IMG/VR virus record: IMGVR_UViG_3300022562_001298
Location: 1 to 35,794 of that record
Source: a virus
DNA: 35,794 bases
Reading direction: 5' to 3' (one strand)
A model generated the notes under the pieces. That model made no database searches. It saw only the letters and a program-made list of their open reading frames with translations, and was not told the origin of the DNA. Of the stretch, positions 2,816 to 26,410 are shown piece by piece. How positions within the stretch are numbered: the first letter of the stretch is position 1; each line of letters opens with the position of its first letter. Both the position numbers and the translations under genes were made by a program.

Positions 2816-5311
2816 CTATTTGATCCCCAAATATCGCTTGAGGTCGTCGATCGAGTTTTTGTCCATTTCCAAAATCGCTTGCGTCATGGCGTCCGCTTGG
2901 TCGTTAAATTTGGTATTTGGCACGCCACAAACTTCATCAAGAAAATCGGCCACCCATGGATTTTGTACCGGATCGGGAATATAAACACAACCGCCGTCAA
3001 CGATCCCGCTCGCGGCAACCCATCGCGTCTCTTTCGAATCTCTTCCAGGATTGACCGCTTGCATCCCGGAAATCGTCTTTCCCATCGATTCCATAACGGC
3101 AGTGCCATTGGCCTTGTCTTCGATCAATTTCTTCGTGGCATTCGGGTAAAGGGTCGTTACCAGCGCGAGCGCCTTTTGTGTCTCGCTGAAACGCAGCTGT
3201 TTTCGGTATTGATAGACGAGATAATTTTTCCCATCGAGGCGTCCCCAGACTTGGCCCACGACAAAGGAATTATCGGGACCGTTCTTGAACGCCATATCCC
3301 ACGACTGCAGCATGTACTCGAAACGCTCGGGCAACTTGGAATAATAACGGAAGCTCTTTCGGAGAAAAATATTCCCTTCTTTCGCGCTTGGCCGTTGCTG
3401 ATAAAGGGCGTCCCAAACGCGCCGGTTGAGAGCCTTTATGTTATTGAGTTTTTGAAGATTCGCCTTTGCCGACCAGAGAACGTCTCCGGGTTTTCGGGGG
3501 TCGTATTCTGCCAACTCTTCCAAAATGGCGGGAAGGTTAAGAACCACCCATTGATCGGCGTCGGGGTTCCCCTTGGCAACTTCGAGAAGCCTCCCCGCAA
3601 GATCATCTTCGTGCCAGCGCGTCATTGTGAGAAGAATCCGGCTATCATTTTCGTCAAGGCGGGTCAGAAAAGTAGAAGTGTACCATTCCCATTGCGCCTC
3701 TCGGATAACCTCGGAAAGGGCTTGCTCCATATTCTTCAAAGGGTCGTCTATAATTCCAATGCTCGCGCCCATGCCGGTAATACCGCCGCCAACTCCGGCC
3801 GCCCGATAAACGCCTTCCTTCCCTACAATCTCGAAAATGTCCGCTCTGCGAAGCCATGAGCCCTTGGCCGTCATGCGAACGTTTGAGGCCGATAATCGTG
3901 TCTCTGGAAAAATCCGTCTGTATTCCTCGGTGTCGATAATTCTCTGGACGTCGCGGCTCATCCGCTTTGCCAAGTCGGAAGCGTAGGAAGCGGAGATAAT
4001 TTGAAGATCGGGATTATTCCCCAATGCGAACGCAGGAAATCTTCGAGAAACAAGCTCGCTGTTATGAGTTGGAAGTAAGGTTTTCCCGACAAGATAAAGC
4101 CCATCATCTGAATCAACTTGAATGCATCGCCCTTGCACTTTTTTATTTAATCGCTCGACCTTTATAAGGCCGATACGGCGGCGCTTCGCAAACCTCCTTA
4201 TTTTTTTTCTTTCCAGGCAGACTGGCAGTTCGCAATCAGGCTGAAAAGCTATGGTGAAAATAACTTTTCTGCCTTGGATTCCGGAGGTTGACAATGAAGG
4301 CTCTTGTCGCCCTAAATATGGACGAAACCCCAAAGAACTCGCTATTTCATGAATATCTTTTGCAAGATTTTTCGATCCAGTTACAATTCGAACTCGTCCC
4401 GTCTTCTTTTCAACATGTCCGTCGGTATCTATCAGTCCCGCAAGCAGTTCTAACCTCTGCTCAATACTCGCTCTTTTATAAATTTCCGGGATTCTTTTTT
4501 CAGAGAATATGCCAAGCTTCTGCAACTCAATAGTCATCCGTCCGGCATGGCCCCTGAATCCACCAAAATTACTTGTCAAAACTCCTGTTTTTTTATGGGT
4601 ATATTCCGAACTTATCCTATATCCTAAAGCGATAATTTTTTGGATATAGAGACGATCATCTTTTGAATAAGTAATCCTTGCCGCCCCCGTAGTTCCATCC
4701 CCAAGCCAAGCCCCTAAGACATATGGGTGCAGAGATAAACGACGCTCTTCTTGCCTGATTGCAGAAATGTTTCTGAGTTGATATTTAACGCGGCCATTTT
4801 TGCTCAGAATGTTAATCGGTCTTTTGAACTTCGTTACTTTTAAAAACGTTTTGGCCTCTCGAATGAAAAATTTTCCATAACTTCGATCAAATATCTCCCA
4901 TTCATGGTTCTCATGGCAATCTATAAAATCGCCATTCGAAAAATGAATCCGGATATCTGCAAAAGAAGGCTCTCCGACCGACAAAACTTTCACCGCTTTT
5001 CCGCTAGGATGAAAAACAAAATCCCCCGGCTTCAAATCGCCATGAGCTTTCCATCCGTCAACGGTAAGCACTGGCGTTGCGTCGGCGCATAGCTTGCCGT
5101 GGCGTGGCGGCATGAAAACCATAAGCCTCCGAATGTCGCCCCGAAAAAACTTCTCAAGCGTTTTTGCGATTAAAAGATGGTGCCAATTTACCCGATAATT
5201 CGGCTTCGTGTAGAGAATGAATTCGAGGAACCCGTTACGCGCCCGCTCCGCCGCTTCTATTTCAAGAAGAAGTAGCCTTTCAAATTCAGGGCTTGTCCTT
5301 TGGGTTATCAT
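2816..5311 (-). CDS. terL: Terminase large subunit interrupted by an intein
   Basis: 831 aa precursor; removal of residues 74-417 leaves a 487-aa terminase, a normal length. The ATPase P-loop P-P-R-H-G-K (68-73) is cut by the intein exactly before the conserved S-E. A G-I-I-D-D-P Walker B motif follows. The nuclease domain has S-W-D-M-A-F, I-E-D-K-A-N-G and N-D-Q-A-D-A-M-T, giving the three acidic residues expected for metal binding. The enzyme packages DNA into the prohead through the portal, encoded just downstream. Its ATG lies 26 bases inside the terminase small-subunit gene. Because the P-loop is split, the precursor cannot hydrolyse ATP until splicing happens, so packaging depends on splicing (inference). 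Confidence 0.93.
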   Translation of the reverse strand: MITQRTSPEFERLLLLEIEAAERARNGFLEFILYTKPNYRVNWHHLLIAKTLEKFFRGDIRRLMVFMPPRHGKLCADATPVLTVDGWKAHGDLKPGDFVFHPSGKAVKVLSVGEPSFADIRIHFSNGDFIDCHENHEWEIFDRSYGKFFIREAKTFLKVTKFKRPINILSKNGRVKYQLRNISAIRQEERRLSLHPYVLGAWLGDGTTGAARITYSKDDRLYIQKIIALGYRISSEYTHKKTGVLTSNFGGFRGHAGRMTIELQKLGIFSEKRIPEIYKRASIEQRLELLAGLIDTDGHVEKKTGRVRIVTGSKNLAKDIHEIASSLGFRPYLGRQEPSLSTSGIQGRKVIFTIAFQPDCELPVCLERKKIRRFAKRRRIGLIKVERLNKKVQGRCIQVDSDDGLYLVGKTLLPTHNSELVSRRFPAFALGNNPDLQIISASYASDLAKRMSRDVQRIIDTEEYRRIFPETRLSASNVRMTAKGSWLRRADIFEIVGKEGVYRAAGVGGGITGMGASIGIIDDPLKNMEQALSEVIREAQWEWYTSTFLTRLDENDSRILLTMTRWHEDDLAGRLLEVAKGNPDADQWVVLNLPAILEELAEYDPRKPGDVLWSAKANLQKLNNIKALNRRVWDALYQQRPSAKEGNIFLRKSFRYYSKLPERFEYMLQSWDMAFKNGPDNSFVVGQVWGRLDGKNYLVYQYRKQLRFSETQKALALVTTLYPNATKKLIEDKANGTAVMESMGKTISGMQAVNPGRDSKETRWVAASGIVDGGCVYIPDPVQNPWVADFLDEVCGVPNTKFNDQADAMTQAILEMDKNSIDDLKRYLGIK
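4061..5092 (-). mobile_element. Intein with LAGLIDADG homing endonuclease in the terminase P-loop
   Basis: 344 aa, from a leucine (CTA at 5090-5092) to H-N at the end, followed by Ser of the C-extein. Block A is L-C-A-D-A-T-P-V-L-T. Block B is C-H-E-N-H-E-W, with His and a Trp two residues later. The two dodecapeptides L-G-A-W-L-G-D-G (about intein residues 126-133) and L-A-G-L-I-D-T-D-G (218-226) keep their acidic residues, so the endonuclease may be active. Block F is G-R-C-I-Q-V-D. The Trp at B:12, Cys at F:4 and a non-nucleophile first residue are hallmarks of class 3 inteins; the usual Thr at F:5 is Ile here. Two 60-base lines inside it hand-count to 32% and 37% G+C, against 50% and 58% in two extein lines, consistent with horizontal arrival. 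Confidence 0.88.
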
Positions 5312-19027: not shown

Positions 19028-19483
19028 TTACGAAATTATCTTGAAATCCCTCGGGGCGCGGTATGCAAGAACGCGACCCTTATGGAATTCAACGATTGAG
19101 ACGGCGTCTCCCTGATTTCCGCCAAGAATTTTTATGAACCCTGTTTCCAAACTTCGCCCGGCATAAAATCCGACGTGCCCTTGTGCTCTATTCGTCCCTC
19201 GCGCAAGGATAACAATACAACCAAGAACGGGGTCCTTCAATCCCTTACCCCAAGTCAAAAAAGATCGAGCACGTGCCGAGTGCGTCCCTTTATATCCGGC
19301 TTGTGTAAGACAAAAATTCACGAAGGCCGCGCACCATGGGATCTCGTCTGTTGTGGCCCTCAGTGACGTCGACTGGAAATATTCCAGAATCCTCGAATTA
19401 TTCTGCTCGGGGCCCTTAATCTCCCGCACGCCAATGTCACGAATGGCTATCGGATACCATGCAAATGGGCTCTTTTGGCTCAT
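19028..19483 (-). CDS. Endolysin, NlpC/P60-like (TIGR02594 type)
   Basis: 151 aa. The family pattern begins with G-V-R-E-I-K-G near 18-24. The catalytic W-C-A-A-F-V-N gives Cys51, G-H-V-G-F-Y gives His103, and G-G-N-Q gives Asn123, a complete Cys-His-Asn set. Such enzymes cut peptide bonds or amide links in peptidoglycan. There is no signal peptide, so export depends on the holin, encoded just downstream. The ribosome-binding site is weak. Confidence 0.88.
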   Translation of the reverse strand: MSQKSPFAWYPIAIRDIGVREIKGPEQNNSRILEYFQSTSLRATTDEIPWCAAFVNFCLTQAGYKGTHSARARSFLTWGKGLKDPVLGCIVILARGTNRAQGHVGFYAGRSLETGFIKILGGNQGDAVSIVEFHKGRVLAYRAPRDFKIIS

Positions 19484-19488
19484 AGCGA

Positions 19489-19821
19489 TTATGTTCTCGC
19501 TTGTCTCCTAACAAAGGTCAGAATTTCGGCATGTTCTTTCTCTCCCGCTTTTATCGCATCGGAAAGCCAAGTTTGAAATTTGTCGGCAGCGGCGGCCAAA
19601 CGGATTTCGGTTTCGTTCATTTTCATCAACGCATTCGTGTTTGCATCCAATGAAGACGCGAATTTATTTCCCATTTCCAAAATCTGCGCGTCCTTTTTGT
19701 CAGATTTTTTTAACAGGTCCTTCAAAACAAATACGAGCGATAACAGGCAGACAACCACCACGAATCCAGCCAGTCCGTATTGCGTCAGAGCCTCTTTCGT
19801 TATTGCGTCGGTCGGCATCAT
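19489..19821 (-). CDS. One-pass membrane protein with coiled-coil tail
   Basis: 110 aa. A hydrophobic helix (G-L-A-G-F-V-V-V-V-C-L-L-S-L-V-F-V) at about residues 16-33 is followed by basic residues (K-D-L-L-K-K-S-D-K-K) and a long helical, coiled-coil-like tail. The layout resembles i-spanins or phage haemolysin-XhlA-like proteins, so it is a second lysis candidate. It lies between the endolysin and another membrane protein, with a four-base overlap to the latter. Confidence 0.6.
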   Translation of the reverse strand: MMPTDAITKEALTQYGLAGFVVVVCLLSLVFVLKDLLKKSDKKDAQILEMGNKFASSLDANTNALMKMNETEIRLAAAADKFQTWLSDAIKAGEKEHAEILTFVRRQART

Positions 19822-20105
19822 TTTTTTGCCGCATTTTCTTCCTGCCGTATCGGTTCCTCCAGTGTTATTTCTACGAGTTTTTTATTTCCGCTTTTGTCAG
19901 AAACCGGAATCGACACTTTGCCCTTCTTCGAAATTTCATCGAGAATGTCCTGAATCGCCTTTTGGTAAGAAAGGGTAGCTGCTTGTTTTATTCTGGTATC
20001 TAGGTATGCCCTCGCGCAGAACACTCCCAGCGTCGCGGATACCCCTATTGCCAAACTGAGAAAAATGATGAGAATCATTTTTGCTTTAGCGAATCTTGAT
20101 TCCAT
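19818..20105 (-). CDS. One-pass membrane protein of the lysis region
   Basis: 95 aa. Residues 10-32 form a membrane helix (I-L-I-I-F-L-S-L-A-I-G-V-S-A-T-L-G-V-F), and the rest includes Y-Q-K-A-I-Q-D-I-L-D-E-I-S and a K-V-S-I-P-V-S-D-K-S-G-N-K-K strand region. It looks like a small i-spanin or accessory holin, but no family is certain. It stands directly after the secreted cassette. Confidence 0.55.
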   Translation of the reverse strand: MESRFAKAKMILIIFLSLAIGVSATLGVFCARAYLDTRIKQAATLSYQKAIQDILDEISKKGKVSIPVSDKSGNKKLVEITLEEPIRQEENAAKK

Positions 20106-20114
20106 GGCGTCTCA

Positions 20115-20624
20115 TTAATCGATCGGACCTTTCGTCATCGGAGTGCAATACCAAATCCCCGGAGAGAAAAGGCAATTGCACCTCTCAATTGTCGCGCCGC
20201 CGGTGTCTATTTTTTCTTCGCCCGTAGTGCATTGAACGGCGCCCGCGAGGTCCGCTTGCGGAATGTCTACAAGTACAAAATGAATTATCTTGGGTGAAAT
20301 CTCGGACGTTGTTAACGCGACAATTCCCGTCGCATCAGGAAACGTCCAGAAACGGTCTGCAGAAAGATCGCCTGATCGGAGCGCTCCATGAAACCACCCG
20401 TCTGCATCATTCAGTTTGAAACTGGCAAAAGGGCTCGACAGCGTAATCCCTCCGCCTCCTGTAATTTCCCAATCGCCCCCAACGAACAGATTGCCAAGGC
20501 TGATTTTTGCATCCGGTCCGAATGAATCCTTTACCTCAATTCCTTTTCCCTGCTCGACACTGTTTATCGCGGCGAATGTACTCGTCGAAAATAACATCGC
20601 CATTACTAATAAGATTTTTTTCAT
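20115..20624 (-). CDS. Fibre-like protein with Sec signal peptide (1)
   Basis: 169 aa from ATG 20622-20624, chosen for AAAGGAGAAGGC upstream. The first 18 residues are a textbook signal peptide: two Lys, a hydrophobic core L-L-V-M-A-M-L-F, then S-T-S-T-F-A before Ala. The mature part contains the tail-fibre segment F-W-T-F-P-D-A-T-G-I-V-A-L-T and ends with a Cys-rich region (C-T-T-G, C-N-C, Y-C-T). It should be exported if the signal works. It is the last of the fibre-like genes and comes before the lysis genes. Function unknown. Confidence 0.75.
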   Translation of the reverse strand: MKKILLVMAMLFSTSTFAAINSVEQGKGIEVKDSFGPDAKISLGNLFVGGDWEITGGGGITLSSPFASFKLNDADGWFHGALRSGDLSADRFWTFPDATGIVALTTSEISPKIIHFVLVDIPQADLAGAVQCTTGEEKIDTGGATIERCNCLFSPGIWYCTPMTKGPID

Positions 20625-20643
20625 GCCTTCTCCTTTTTGCGTT

Positions 20644-21099
20644 TTACGCTTTATAATATCCAATAAGTTCCGCCGTCAGCACAAGCGATGACGCCGTAAA
20701 TCCTATATCTATTCCGAGATTTATGGTTTCGTTGAAATCCGCAAGAACTCCGCCAGCAGACGCTGGCAAAAATAGCGCGCTGTTTGCACCTCCAAGGCCA
20801 GAAAGCAAAGTCGGTCCGATAATGTTATCCGCGGATCCGTTCGTCCCCACGCCCGCCGTCCCTGCGACTGCCACCAAGGAAGAACTTTCAACAATCAGAT
20901 TAACGCCATGCACGACGATTTTTCTATCCGATGGGGCCGTAATAAGTGCCGTGTCACCGGCAGCCTTTCCGTCGATTGCCGAAACGCTTGCCAGAACCCG
21001 AATAAACCCGCCCGGAATCGCAGGCACGTCATTGTTGGGATCGAAAATTTTTTGCTGTCCTGTATTCGTATCGATCCCCAAAAGATAAACAAGCGCCAT
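20644..21099 (-). CDS. Fibre-associated beta-sandwich protein
   Basis: 151 aa, no signal peptide. From residue 43 it has I-D-G-K-A-A-G-D-T-A-L-I-T-A-P-S and ends with L-V-L-T-A-E-L-I-G-Y-Y. The same layout (I-D-G-K-T-T-G-P-T-N-L-F-T-V-P-T ... L-A-C-D-L-I-G-Y-L) forms the C-terminal half of the next upstream protein, so the two share a domain of about 110 residues. A GAGGT Shine-Dalgarno supports the ATG at 21099. Probably a virion adhesin or its accessory (inference). Confidence 0.7.
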   Translation of the reverse strand: MALVYLLGIDTNTGQQKIFDPNNDVPAIPGGFIRVLASVSAIDGKAAGDTALITAPSDRKIVVHGVNLIVESSSLVAVAGTAGVGTNGSADNIIGPTLLSGLGGANSALFLPASAGGVLADFNETINLGIDIGFTASSLVLTAELIGYYKA

Positions 21100-21108
21100 G
21101 ATTTTACC

Positions 21109-21897
21109 TCAAACAAGGTACCCTATTAGGTCACACGCCAGCGTTGCCGTCGTTCCCCCAAAGGCAACCGCGATATTCATAACAATCGTTGCTCCGGCCT
21201 CTGCAACTGCCCTGTTTCCCTGCCCCTGGAAACTATAGGTTTCCCCCGATGTGTCGAATCCTAAAAGCGTTGCCTCCGAAAATATATCCGTTGGGCTGCC
21301 GGATCTCCCTATGCTAATTCTTCCAGGTGACGTCAGGGAAACAGCAGTGGTTAATCGCATAACAGCCGCCAAAATAATTGCCGTCTTGCCGGTTGGGACG
21401 GTGAATAGGTTCGTCGGGCCTGTTGTCTTTCCGTCAATTCCTGTAATCGTGGAAAGAATTCCGGGAGTCCCCAACGCGGTCCTCGCAGTCTGCGCCGTTA
21501 CTTGGCCCGTGCCTCCCTCCGTGATGGGGATAACCGGGCCGGGTGCGTTAATGTCATAGCCAAATCCGAATGCGTTTACCGTGAATGTCCCGTTGCAAGC
21601 CGAATGCACTTTCAAAAAAAGTTCATCGCTCGCATGAATTATATTGCTCGAGTTGAAAGGATCCTTGAAAAAATTAAAGCCATCCCCCTTTATTCCGCTG
21701 AGGTCGCGCAAGGTCATATGATTATCATAATTCGGGCCGTTCGTCCCTAATGTGACAACTGGAAATGTTGTCACCCCCGATTTCGATGAAGTCACGAAAA
21801 ACACCCATGGAAGAACGCATTCGATTGGAATAACTCCAAGAGAAACGTTTCCGATGCTCGTCAAATCGATAGAGTTTTTTTGAAAAATTAACTTCAC
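21109..21897 (-). CDS. Tail fibre-like protein
   Basis: 262 aa from GTG 21895-21897 with GAGG four bases upstream. The centre carries the fibre motif I-T-E-G-G-T-G-Q-V-T-A-Q-T-A-R-T-A-L-G, known from many tail fibres as the joint before a C-terminal domain. The C-terminal 110 residues are paralogous to the 151-aa protein encoded downstream. No signal peptide. The start overlaps the upstream stop by four bases (GTGA), so synthesis is coupled to the signal-bearing 534-aa protein. Confidence 0.75.
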   Translation of the reverse strand: MKLIFQKNSIDLTSIGNVSLGVIPIECVLPWVFFVTSSKSGVTTFPVVTLGTNGPNYDNHMTLRDLSGIKGDGFNFFKDPFNSSNIIHASDELFLKVHSACNGTFTVNAFGFGYDINAPGPVIPITEGGTGQVTAQTARTALGTPGILSTITGIDGKTTGPTNLFTVPTGKTAIILAAVMRLTTAVSLTSPGRISIGRSGSPTDIFSEATLLGFDTSGETYSFQGQGNRAVAEAGATIVMNIAVAFGGTTATLACDLIGYLV

Positions 21898-23498
21898 AAA
21901 ACCTCTTCAAGGATCAGCGTGCATCTCGCAGATCCCCCAAAAAATCTTCCTGATGAGGTCCCGTTCAAGTAAACATTGCCGGTGTTAGCGCCTACCCTCA
22001 CTTTATATGTGAACGTCCCCGCCGCACCAGGTGAATCCTCAAAAGAATATGATATGCTTTGCAATTCCATATTTCTGTTTCCGGTAAATGCGTTGATCGC
22101 GTTTGCTTCAGCATCTCTAAAAATACCAGTGCTCCACCAAGCGCCAGCGGTTCCAAGCGCTCCAAATAAGGATATATGAATTCGGACCTTGCTACTCGCT
22201 GAATGGGTCGTTATGGATGCCGAAAGAATTTCATCGCCCTCGGTATTTTGTGGGATAGTGTCATCGATTGGAATCGTCCCGGTGACGGTCGTATTTGTGA
22301 CGATTTCGTCATAGCCAAATCCAGCGCTTCCCTGTGTCCCGTTATCGAAGACCACAAGTCCATTTCCATTGACATGGAAGGCTTCTGTCGATCCGTTTGC
22401 GACCGACATTAGAATCTCTGAATCGCCAAGGGCTTGTCTTGTCGTCCCATTTTTTTTCCATCCCTGGAAAATGAACGGTTTCACTGTCCCGCTAGGGGTC
22501 GCCGTTCCGACAAATCCCTCAAAGAGCATCGCCGTCGCGTCTGTGTCGCTATATCCTTGAATTTTCAGGCCGCCCGTCGTCGGAGCAATCGGAAGGAAGG
22601 CGCCAAAAATATCGGTTGGGACGAGATTCGTCATGCCATGCGCGACGTCGCCATCCTCAAGATAGACCAGCGGATTTTTACCGACCGGGGAACCAAACTG
22701 AATTTTCCCGCCGGCGGTTTGAATCGCCCATGAATTTGTTCCAAATTCCTGATCCTCAAGATAAAGTCCCCAATGGCTCGTGATTGATCCTCCAAAAATA
22801 TAGGGTGATTCCCCATAGAAAATATAATCTTGAGCAATGTTCCCGGCCCCGAAATTCCCGGTGCCCGCCGCAATAGCGTAGTTCCCTTCTTTCGGATTGG
22901 TGCCGCTGATATTTCCACTCCCGACATTGTAGGAAATGAAATACCCTCCGACCTGCTCGGAAGTAATGTCCCCGGCGCCCGAATTGTACGCTTGCCCGAA
23001 TAAACCAAATGCTAAGCTCAAATCGCCATCGCCGCTGTGCAGCATTTGAAATTCGCCGGCGGAGAAATTGGAAAAGTTGTAATTATGGACGCTTTGGACA
23101 TCAACATAATATTCATGCGCGACAAACGATCCAAATCCGTCTCCTACGTCAGTCGTTGGGTTGAGAATGGTTCTGGCATAGTGATCATACGTGTTCGATG
23201 CTGAGAAATCGGTGATCGTGCTGCCCCAATCAAAATTGCGCGTGCCGGATCCAGCCCCACCGTTCGCACCGAATATGGTTTTCCCCGTCGTGGTAATATC
23301 GCCAAGATCGTTGATCGTGGGAATGCTGTTTTGAAGCAGTTTTCCCGTTGTGCCGTCAAATCGAACGATCGCATTGTCCGTCGCGGACACCGGCCCGTTA
23401 ACGTCGCCGCCCTGCGGTGGATAAAAATAAATGCCGGACCCTGCAAACGCTGCCGCCGGAACGAGAATATACAACAAAAAAAGTTTTAATATTTTCAT
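21894..23498 (-). CDS. Large fibre-like protein with Sec signal peptide (2)
   Basis: 534 aa. Residues 1-19 form a signal peptide (two Lys, L-F-L-L-Y-I-L-V-P core, A-A-A-F-A before Gly). Then comes the phage fibre motif A-T-D-N-A-I-V-R-F-D-G-T-T-G-K-L-L-Q-N (near 41-59) and long Gly/Asn-rich beta-structured repeats. The C-terminal 140 residues (from about T-V-T-G-T-I-P-I-D-D-T-I-P-Q) look like a jelly-roll receptor-binding head. It reads as a tail fibre in every part except the leader. The start codon has no clear Shine-Dalgarno and lies one base after the previous stop. Confidence 0.8.
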   Translation of the reverse strand: MKILKLFLLYILVPAAAFAGSGIYFYPPQGGDVNGPVSATDNAIVRFDGTTGKLLQNSIPTINDLGDITTTGKTIFGANGGAGSGTRNFDWGSTITDFSASNTYDHYARTILNPTTDVGDGFGSFVAHEYYVDVQSVHNYNFSNFSAGEFQMLHSGDGDLSLAFGLFGQAYNSGAGDITSEQVGGYFISYNVGSGNISGTNPKEGNYAIAAGTGNFGAGNIAQDYIFYGESPYIFGGSITSHWGLYLEDQEFGTNSWAIQTAGGKIQFGSPVGKNPLVYLEDGDVAHGMTNLVPTDIFGAFLPIAPTTGGLKIQGYSDTDATAMLFEGFVGTATPSGTVKPFIFQGWKKNGTTRQALGDSEILMSVANGSTEAFHVNGNGLVVFDNGTQGSAGFGYDEIVTNTTVTGTIPIDDTIPQNTEGDEILSASITTHSASSKVRIHISLFGALGTAGAWWSTGIFRDAEANAINAFTGNRNMELQSISYSFEDSPGAAGTFTYKVRVGANTGNVYLNGTSSGRFFGGSARCTLILEEVL

Positions 23499-23499
23499 A

Positions 23500-23988
23500 T
23501 TAATTGCAGAAAACGGCTATGTTATCGTTAGCCGTATCCGCTGAAAAATAAATCTGATTGAGATTCGACATCGATATGGGCCCTAGCGCTCCGCCGGGCT
23601 TGATCGGAAAGCCCGTATTGCTTCCGGCTGCGTTTGTCACGGTCGATCCGCCAGCATACACGATGCCCGTGTTGCCGGTTCCGTCCTTTTGGATTGCCTG
23701 AAATGTGCAGGAATGTATGGAGAGATTTGGGCCTTGGGTGCGGTCGGTTGCGCCGCTCGCTGCGATCACAATTTGTCCGGCTATGATCGTTCCGAATGCA
23801 TCTTGCGTGGTCGTCGACAGTGTGCCGTCGGCATTCAGGCGGAAAGGCACGATGTTATCGTTTGAATCGGCCCCTCCCATGACAGTTGGGCCTTGATTCG
23901 AAACGGCTGGAAGAACCTTCCCGGTCGCCCATGCGGGCGCCGTTAAAAGCAGGACTGCCAGAATGCCAAAAGAGAGATTGTATTTCAT
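23500..23988 (-). CDS. Secreted-type protein with Sec signal peptide (3)
   Basis: 162 aa. Signal peptide M-K-Y-N-L-S-F-G-I-L-A-V-L-L-L-T then A-P-A-W-A, cleavage expected before T-G-K-V-L-P. The mature N-terminus (G-K-V-L-P-A-V ... V-P-F-R-L-N-A-D-G-T-L) matches that of the 24165-24434 product (G-K-V-L-T-P-I ... I-P-L-S-V-D-A-D-G-L-L), so the two are paralogs. The rest is beta-rich, with F-S-A-D-T-A-N-D-N-I-A-V near the end, seen in virion structural proteins. AAGAGGTGA supports the start. The 176-base gap upstream of it is AT-rich and holds no gene. Confidence 0.75.
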   Translation of the reverse strand: MKYNLSFGILAVLLLTAPAWATGKVLPAVSNQGPTVMGGADSNDNIVPFRLNADGTLSTTTQDAFGTIIAGQIVIAASGATDRTQGPNLSIHSCTFQAIQKDGTGNTGIVYAGGSTVTNAAGSNTGFPIKPGGALGPISMSNLNQIYFSADTANDNIAVFCN

Positions 23989-24164
23989 CTGTCACCTCTT
24001 TGGCCTGAATAGCACGCCGTCAGCTAAATCACAATTTTTTATTCGGTATTAATTTTTGAGTTTATGGTTATTTCAATTCTCCGAGAAGAACCATTTTTAT
24101 AAATCTACCCGAAAAGATAAAGAGGATGCTATCGTTCGCAGTCCATTTGTGAATTCGCCGAGAG

Positions 24165-24434
24165 TCACTGATATTGTCTGGTCTTGAGAGCGGTCCCAGA
24201 AATGGTCGATCTTGTGAATCCTAGGAGAGAGCTGGTATCGACGGACGCGTTGATATTCAGGAGTCCGTCGGCATCAACGCTGAGGGGGATCGTGAGGCCC
24301 GTAGGCCCTTTCCCGGCCACCGGGAACGGAGCTTCGTCCGTGATGGGTGTCAGGACCTTTCCAGCGCCAAAAAGGTTCAGCGGAAGCAGAAGGAAGGCCG
24401 CAGCTATCAGTGATTTTTTAAAAATCGGGTGCAT
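24165..24434 (-). CDS. Short secreted-type protein with signal peptide (4), paralog of the 162-aa one
   Basis: 89 aa from ATG 24432-24434, which has GGAGG six bases upstream; an upstream in-frame ATG at 24464 is possible. The signal peptide is M-H-P-I-F-K-K-S-L-I-A-A-A-F-L-L-L-P with cleavage near L-F-G-A before G-K-V-L. The mature part matches only the first 50 residues of the paralog and then ends, so it may be a truncated duplicate. Its Shine-Dalgarno lies within a perfect hairpin (24435-24456), which should lower translation unless the hairpin is opened. Confidence 0.65.
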   Translation of the reverse strand: MHPIFKKSLIAAAFLLLPLNLFGAGKVLTPITDEAPFPVAGKGPTGLTIPLSVDADGLLNINASVDTSSLLGFTRSTISGTALKTRQYQ

Positions 24435-24456
24435 GGAATCCTCCAATGAGGATTCC
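24435..24456 (-). promoter_or_regulatory. RBS-sequestering hairpin
   Basis: GGAATCCTC and GAGGATTCC form a perfect 9-bp stem with a 4-base loop. On the minus-strand RNA the 3' arm contains most of the GGAGG Shine-Dalgarno and ends directly at the ATG. It is not followed by a T-run, so it is not a terminator. Confidence 0.65.
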
Positions 24457-24500
24457 ACTTTCAAGGCGATCCCGATCTATTCCAATCGGTTTTTTAGGAA

Positions 24501-25604
24501 TTATTCGATGAAGCTTGCGGATGGGCCGATCTCATATGAAAAAATAAATTCTGCGCTCTTACTTCCAGAGTTGGTCCATCCTCCCCCGCTTGGTGTATCT
24601 AATCTTAAAGAATTAGAACTACCAGCTAAAAGAACGACCCCTGTACCGTAACTGCTAACACCATTATCTGCATACCTTCCTAATGATCCTCGTGCCACAT
24701 TTGAAGAAGAACCTTGCGTAGGAGCTGTTAGCCAAAATAAAACCGAATTTGATACGCCAGTACTAGTATTACAAAGCAGAGTGACTTGTTTCCCAATCTG
24801 TGTCCATTTTATATATGGAGATGGAGGATTTGATGAAAAGCCAACGAATGTCGGATTCCACGGTTGCCATAAACCATCCGCGCTCTTCCCCGTCACTACG
24901 TCATTGACGCCTGACTGAACAATATTCAAATTTTCCGAGCTTCCACCCGTGTCATCAAAATCGGTCCTGAAATAACCGAATTCCAAGACCGTGTTCGTCG
25001 CAGATCCGACGGCCGTGTTACAAAGGATTTCCTCCGGTTGATCAACGTTACTTGCCGTGGCGTTCGTATCCGTCGTTAAAACCGTATCGCGTCCACCAAG
25101 GAGTGCAACGCATGTCCTCAAAGTTCCATTGTCGTTAATGAATAAAGCCCTCAGAATTCTTCCCGTGAGGTCGCCCGCCGTGTCCGCTCCCCAAGTCGCA
25201 CCCGTCAAATTAATCGTCACGTCGGAGGTGATCCGAAATACGGTGAGCGCGCCCGCCGTAGTTGATGGCATAACAACGAAACCCGGATTGGTCTGTGAGC
25301 AAGCAGATCCACCGCATTGAATCTTGATTGAGTCTCCCGTCGCCGACGTTGTCGCGCGGACGAGATTAATGTTGTAGGTTCCAATCTTGAGAGGAGCGCC
25401 TTTAAAAGATCCGACCGCCCCGTCAATTGAGGCCACTAAAGTCGATCCCGTATCCGTATAGACGTTCAGGTCAGATCCCGAATAAAGACTTTCATCCCCA
25501 CGAAGAACCGTAGTACCGGATACATCAAGATTCCCGTTGATTTTCGTTGCCCCTGCCATTGCGGGCAGGAGAAGAAACGCGAGTGTCGCTAGAATTTTTT
25601 TCAT
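24501..25604 (-). CDS. Fibre-like protein with Sec signal peptide (5)
   Basis: 367 aa. Signal peptide M-K-K-I-L-A-T-L-A-F-L-L-L-P-A then M-A-G-A before T-K-I-N-G. The mature protein starts with N-G-N-L-D-V-S-G-T-T-V-L-R-G, a motif of phage fibre shafts. The C-terminal 120 residues (G-L-W-Q-P-W-N-P-T-F-V-G-F then Y-I-K-W-T-Q-I-G-K-Q-V-T-L) are the type of receptor-binding end found on many tail fibres. GGGAGAAAA supports the ATG. It follows the true fibre gene, which has no signal. Confidence 0.8.
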   Translation of the reverse strand: MKKILATLAFLLLPAMAGATKINGNLDVSGTTVLRGDESLYSGSDLNVYTDTGSTLVASIDGAVGSFKGAPLKIGTYNINLVRATTSATGDSIKIQCGGSACSQTNPGFVVMPSTTAGALTVFRITSDVTINLTGATWGADTAGDLTGRILRALFINDNGTLRTCVALLGGRDTVLTTDTNATASNVDQPEEILCNTAVGSATNTVLEFGYFRTDFDDTGGSSENLNIVQSGVNDVVTGKSADGLWQPWNPTFVGFSSNPPSPYIKWTQIGKQVTLLCNTSTGVSNSVLFWLTAPTQGSSSNVARGSLGRYADNGVSSYGTGVVLLAGSSNSLRLDTPSGGGWTNSGSKSAEFIFSYEIGPSASFIE

Positions 25605-25624: not shown

Positions 25625-26410
25625 TTATTGGGATGGCAATAACAAAACGGATCCCGCTTGCGCCACTGAAAACGTGATCGTGGTCGTGTTTAGCTGTACA
25701 TCGATATCATCCGGAATTATGACGCTCCCAAGGCCGTCGTTGTCATCCGTAACTTGTACAATGTGCGCGGACCCCAAGTTGTGATTTACAACCCATGTGG
25801 TCGAGGAAGCGAAATTTTCAATGTAACTACTCTTTAGTGAATTCCCGAAAGAAAACGAAGATCCAGCCAGATAAACCGCACTCATGCACGGAACTTCAAG
25901 GGTCGTTCCCCTGCGTCGGAATAGAACCATCTCATATTCCTGCAAGCTTGCGGAAAGTGTGCTCTCAGCAACGATATCATATTGCCCCTCGTTAAGCCCG
26001 CTCCCGTAGGTACCAGCCGCAAGATTAACGGGGGAAGAATTCGTCTTGTCCTTCCGCAAAACAACCACCTCGCCGTCTGCCAAAACAAGCGTCCCCGCGG
26101 GAAACTGGTTGATCTGTTCGCCGGTCTTTACCCGGAAAGAAATCTGAAGGGCGGAGCCGAAAGTTAACGTGGAACCGTCCCACGTGACGGCTTGGGGAAG
26201 GATAAACGTCCGGTCAATCGTTTCAGTTTTCGCCTCGACATAGGCTTGCCAAAGATATTCCGTGTACTGGATCCAGTTCATCCACTCGCACGGCGGCTGT
26301 TCGCCCGGCTGCCAGCCGATCTGTTTCTTGGCAAGATTCGGCTCGACAATTCCGCCCTGCTGCCCTTGCGGTGCCTGATAAGCCCATTGAGTAAATTGTG
26401 GTTGTGCCAT
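25625..26410 (-). CDS. Tail fibre protein
   Basis: 261 aa, no signal peptide. The N-terminus has the baseplate-attachment pattern K-K-Q-I-G-W-Q-P-G-E-Q-P-P-C-E-W-M-N-W near 29-46, common to tail fibre proteins just downstream of the baseplate genes. The middle is beta-rich (G-T-L-V-L-A-D-G-E-V-V-V) and the C-terminal 70 residues have W-V-V-N-H-N-L-G-S-A-H-I-V-Q-V-T-D, an adhesin-type ending. AAGGGGAAAA precedes the ATG. Confidence 0.8.
   Translation of the reverse strand: MAQPQFTQWAYQAPQGQQGGIVEPNLAKKQIGWQPGEQPPCEWMNWIQYTEYLWQAYVEAKTETIDRTFILPQAVTWDGSTLTFGSALQISFRVKTGEQINQFPAGTLVLADGEVVVLRKDKTNSSPVNLAAGTYGSGLNEGQYDIVAESTLSASLQEYEMVLFRRRGTTLEVPCMSAVYLAGSSFSFGNSLKSSYIENFASSTTWVVNHNLGSAHIVQVTDDNDGLGSVIIPDDIDVQLNTTTITFSVAQAGSVLLLPSQ

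Follow-up and report, generated by a model that had tools for sequence, protein, structure and literature searches.

The usual view of phage receptor-binding proteins is that they stay in the cytoplasm and have no leader. Signal peptides are known from phage envelope morons, namely Lom (encoded just after J) and Bor of lambda, and Llp of T5; these are an outer-membrane barrel or small lipoproteins, however, and are not fibre-like. The binding proteins of phage diversity-generating retroelements have been reported to be without signal peptides (PMC6199706), while the mosaic adhesive trimers (MATs) of Bdellovibrio bacteriovorus are surface fibres of the predator that have a signal peptide, a stalk built of modules and tips that can be exchanged, some of them TNF-like (PMC10769870). 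Here, we analyze a cassette of seven consecutive genes (positions 20,115 to 25,604, minus strand) in the viral contig IMGVR_UViG_3300022562_001298 of IMG/VR, the window being the whole stretch of 35,794 nucleotides. We consider it probable that this cassette encodes fibre-like binding proteins that leave the cytoplasm via the Sec pathway to work either at the envelope or once the cell has lysed. It shares predicted signal peptides with Lom, Bor and Llp, and by analogy may be kin to two known kinds of protein, the envelope morons and the secreted fibres. Word searches of a limited open-access library, whose silence is weak evidence, turned up no tailed phage for which a cassette of leadered fibres had been described.

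All seven open reading frames (ORFs) are present with the starts given in the original prediction, which had assigned signal peptides to five of them, and the motifs that it quoted all occur in the sequence. Using a rule-based predictor (our own rule set, in strict and lenient forms) rather than SignalP, we likewise called Sec-type leaders on the genes that start at 25604, 24434, 23988, 23498 and 20624, by which positions they are named below: MKKILATLAFLLLPAMAGA (25548-25604), MHPIFKKSLIAAAFLLLPLNLFGA (24363-24434), MKYNLSFGILAVLLLTAPAWA (23926-23988), MKILKLFLLYILVPAAAFA (23442-23498) and MKKILLVMAMLFSTSTFA (20571-20624), with predicted cleavage at the end of each. These leaders consist of 18-24 amino acids with one or two Lys/Arg, no Asp or Glu and a hydrophobic core, the h-regions of 9-14 residues being followed by small-residue sites (AGA, FGA, AWA, AFA and TFA, respectively). 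The leader of 24434 has the weakest site (FGA) and passes the lenient rule only. By the strict rule, four of the seven window genes were positive, as compared with nine of 1,335 distinct genes of related phage loci and two of 1,335 when the N-termini were shuffled; at the background rate, the chance of obtaining four of seven is about 7e-8 (binomial). Leaders on the cassette genes therefore exist beyond chance, and the hallmarks of Sec type I signal peptides (positive n-region, hydrophobic core, small residues at -3 and -1) are found in the cassette above chance. No lipobox was called in the five leaders, and neither Pfam nor PHROG yielded a lysis-family match for the cassette proteins; as lysis genes are found only past position 20105, spanins and other lysis proteins were rejected as candidates. 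A recognisable ribosome-binding site precedes four of the five leadered genes, while 23498, which starts in TAATATG two bases past the stop of 23988, has no obvious one.

The original prediction also held that the mature parts are fibre-like, and here the cassette proteins differ. The fibre character of 23498 (21894-23498, 534 amino acids) is solid, comprising a module and a trimeric tip, and it is the only cassette gene that combines fibre modules with the trimeric receptor-binding tip of tailed-phage fibres. For its DNAIVRFDGTTGK module, present as ATDNAIVRFDGTTGK at residues 39-53 (23340-23384), viral contigs yielded at least 547 relatives, and cellular fibre proteins contain it as well. 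The C-terminal TNF/C1q-like tip covers residues 399-533 (21900-22304); relatives of this 135-residue end occur in 19 viral contigs, on leaderless proteins, and the alignment contains many invariant residues. The structure model is confident at the tip only (most 10-residue blocks 66-92), where Foldseek identified the chlamydial Pgp3 as the best match of solved structure (E 4e-7), along with the lambda central tail fibre, C1q, a cyanophage short tail fibre, the tip of Bdellovibrio Bd2734 (8okw, E 1.7e-3) and many phage proteins. Pgp3 is a secreted trimer with a TNF-like head, but it is plasmid-coded in an intracellular bacterium and resembles 23498 in tip fold only.

Short fibre-like motifs lend moderate support to a fibre character of 20624 (20115-20624, 169 amino acids; FPDATGIVAL, with four cysteines in the C-terminus) and 25604 (24501-25604, 367 amino acids; LDVSGTTVL and five cysteines in the mature part). 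The suggestion is weaker for 24434 (24165-24434, 89 amino acids, 65 of them mature) and 23988 (23500-23988, 162 amino acids, with a tip-like C-terminus and two cysteines), which have in common a small 'DADG' domain (IPLSVDADG and IVPFRLNADG, respectively). The two remaining genes, 21897 (21109-21897, 262 amino acids, GTG start) and 21099 (20644-21099, 151 amino acids), adjoin and contain a paralogous tip-like C-terminal domain of about 114 residues (24% identity, E 3e-10); 21897 also weakly matches tail-fibre PHROG 2097 (E 0.023). Scans with Pfam, PHROG and NCBIfam produced no significant match for any of the seven proteins, and pattern scans with 25604 (whole and C-terminus), 23988 and the small domain revealed no relatives. 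In tblastn searches of INPHARED, nothing was found for 25604, 23988 or 20624, and 23498 gave only a short N-terminal match to a leaderless protein of Mycobacterium phage Boilgate. The comparison with known fibres proposed earlier succeeded for the 23498 tip. For 25604, the single-sequence structure prediction was unusable (pLDDT 31), and the resemblance to antibody light chains (E 0.005) was put down to chance.

Evidence on whether such leaders are cut comes from the phage contig L097 and its relative L195. In each, two adjacent leadered genes, one small and one large, have the same N-terminal domain in their mature parts; it begins at the predicted cleavage site, both mature parts opening with K[T/D]E exactly there. 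Between L097 and L195 orthologues, 30 of 36 and 29 of 34 residues are identical at the mature start (83-85%), as opposed to eight of 22 and six of 20 in the leader; between paralogues within one genome, the corresponding figures are 22 of 33 and 21 of 33 versus one of 22 and three of 20. Flanking genes of the two contigs are 72-96% identical. The leader thus varies freely while its design is kept and conservation sets in at the cut site, a pattern that fits a cleavable signal peptide, of which it appears typical, and that argues against an anchor helix. As no close relative spanning the window cassette was found, the pattern is known from L097 and L195 only. Additionally, leadered proteins contain 0.93 cysteines per 100 amino acids, compared with 0.18 in leaderless motif fibres (p = 4e-5), as an oxidising compartment would favour. 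The DNAIVRFDGTTGK module and the TNF-like tip are also known from ordinary fibres of tailed phages, which share these sequence modules with the cassette but are leaderless and poorer in cysteine than the leadered proteins.

Among 78 module-bearing ORFs in viral contigs, real leaders were found only in L047, L063 (accepted by inspection, as it falls below the script threshold) and L097, and none on tip proteins; leadered versions are therefore the exception. They nevertheless turn up repeatedly, and frequently in groups, in unrelated phage contigs, where they lie within tail-gene operons or next to them. In L097 and L195, leadered genes for 58 and 520/948 amino acids lie side by side between the phrog_394 and phrog_376 tail proteins, with one more leadered gene after them. 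Four leadered genes stand among the head and tail genes of L063, and at least two occur in each of L188 and L197. In L117, a leadered gene directly follows a J homologue; in L047, one is found close to a collar fibre. For this count, the near-identical L195 and L196 were counted once and L148, an open-ended fragment, was left out; L037, L042 and L082, first called leadered, were discarded because their starts were chance upstream or internal ones. A leadered fibre in L159, a contig of a metagenome-assembled genome (MAG) not shown to be phage, carries little weight. Cultured relatives of some modules are leaderless. In the homologue search that had been proposed, L097 and L195 keep the leader design and homologous modules mostly lack leaders. 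Leaderless homologues had been named as evidence that would count against secretion; we do not treat those found as such, because they are mosaic modules in other proteins and not whole-gene orthologues. Separately, the L097 phage encodes (L208, 9468-16969) genes that, as read from sequence, resemble glycosyltransferases, an epimerase and an aminotransferase and that perhaps make a surface polysaccharide.

A cellular counterpart was found in MAG LJ_bin-0460 (G001, 5.5 Mb; L115-L155), which contains 39 matches to 23498, mostly to the DNAIVRFDGTTGK module, suggesting a large MAT-like repertoire of surface fibres. One of its proteins combines a leader with an S74 domain and matches the MAT N-terminal domain of Bdellovibrio below threshold, and another fragment has both the module and the tip of 23498 amid cellular genes. 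As a predicted signal peptide on a modular fibre with an exchangeable-type tip, 23498 has a similar plan, and the MATs would be the closest working analogue of the cassette. However, the window proteins are phage-coded and short, and they are not MATs, because the MAT N-terminal domain (NF053851) had no match at E 0.1 in the window proteins, nor in records G000 and G004-G006. No S74 domain was detected in the window proteins by Pfam.

Taken together, these observations make export of the cassette proteins very probable, and the secreted or surface-exposed trimers Pgp3 and Bd2734, whose tips have a 23498-like fold, count in its favour. The proteins would be made with the late genes, shortly before lysis as suggested by the position of the cassette in the late operon, exported by Sec, and relieved of their signal peptides. 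They would then fold in the periplasm, probably as trimers that are partly disulphide-bonded, and act from the periplasm, from the surface, or in the lysate after release. For the window proteins, we infer that they are cleaved, exported and trimeric and take no part in virion assembly in the cytoplasm. Their roles may include receptor masking, a change of adhesion, or virion docking after lysis, and the original prediction also offered exclusion of other phages and capture of released virions. The likeliest function, with about an even chance given export, is that of receptor-binding proteins, on the surface or released, by which the adhesion of the infected cell is altered or masked. The cassette and its counterparts in several unrelated phages suggest that phages direct fibre-like proteins to the host envelope rather than incorporating them into virions intracellularly. 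If so, binding proteins of many uncultured phages would end up in or on the envelope of the host, which would affect superinfection, adhesion and the behaviour of lysates, and phage fibres would be tied to the secreted fibres of predatory bacteria.

The proposal that fibre-like proteins are exported to the envelope is strengthened beyond the window contig by the L097/L195 divergence, the recurrent leadered cassettes and the higher cysteine content, although not every mature part is proven to be a fibre. Several observations weigh against it. The leadered run is not uniform, as the predictor called no leader on 21897 and 21099 in the same run. The cassette is absent from prophages with related portal and J genes, and no close relative spanning it was found, a 100% identical contig (L101) stopping short of it. 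L097 and L195 share just the small domain with window genes 24434 and 23988, and the cysteine contrast may stem from differing hosts.

Leadered genes inside or beside the tail operons of unrelated phages would also be expected if the products were true fibres of the virion, folded in the periplasm and docking on tails only at cell lysis. The single N-terminal domain present on small and large leadered proteins is docking-domain-like, and PHROG scans identified no leaderless tail fibre in L097, although they took in selected proteins only and L097 is possibly incomplete. In the window, on the other hand, the leaderless fibre genes 26410, 21897 and 21099 could serve the virion, and we know of no tailed-phage precedent for fibre assembly after lysis, so that we judge such late docking unlikely. 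The broader notion of a widespread, unnamed phage gene class, whose fibres are exported, folded in the periplasm, disulphide-bonded and joined to finished virions at lysis, with part of the virion being made outside the cytoplasm, is in our estimation likewise unlikely. The integrase in L097 and the leadered gene right after the J homologue in L117 would instead suit lysogenic conversion, in which morons alter the surface of the living lysogen (adhesion, superinfection exclusion) from a slot similar to that of lambda Lom; as the window genes that were examined showed no integrase and the cassette genes are tightly continuous with the late operon, we regard this as distinctly unlikely.

Given their place among tail genes, the leaders could also remain uncut and fix a fibre to the virion or membrane, the structural anchor helix that had been offered as the alternative to secretion. 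This is disfavoured by analogy with L097 and L195, in which the rate of divergence changes sharply exactly at the site, and also by the h-regions, which span 9-14 residues and lead into small-residue sites; we hold it to be very improbable. Finally, G001 codes for dozens of module proteins, one of which has the same tip in a cellular context, and the cassette might represent host-type surface adhesin genes captured by chance and without function in the phage cycle. Recurrence at tail-gene positions in several unrelated phages and the lack of the MAT N-terminal domain in the window proteins leave this explanation scarcely credible.

All main genes of the window lie on the minus strand. They include head genes (portal, MuF-type, terminase) and tail genes (sheath, tape measure, baseplate hub, gp25, J, DUF2612), so the source looks like a Mu/P2-like tailed phage with a contractile tail; the record may be incomplete. 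In the gene order, DUF2612 precedes the cassette, and the lysis genes come after it. Gene 26410 (25625-26410, minus strand), negative by the leader rule and directly 3' of the baseplate J and DUF2612 genes, weakly matches tail-fibre PHROGs 4465/2282 in its N-terminus and phrog_21918 in its C-terminus; its product is a probable virion-bound baseplate fibre or adaptor. On the other side of the cassette, a gene for a small protein with an N-terminal membrane segment (19818-20105, minus strand) probably starts the lysis region and stands outside the fibre set; next come a one-TM (transmembrane) protein (19489-19821) and a CHAP-domain endolysin (19028-19483).

A J-based genome scan for host assignment found nothing. 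Assignment through the phylum of G001 was rejected, since J and portal of the window are only about 30% identical to those of prophages from that phylum, whose tail regions are without the cassette. In prophages with a related J, a small leadered protein of 133 or 136 amino acids is encoded after the lysis genes (L209, 5444-5845; L210, 6535-6945). Within the window, the terminase large subunit (2816-5311, minus strand) appears to be interrupted within its Walker A motif by an intein bearing a LAGLIDADG endonuclease (PPRHGK | C...HN | SELVSRR).
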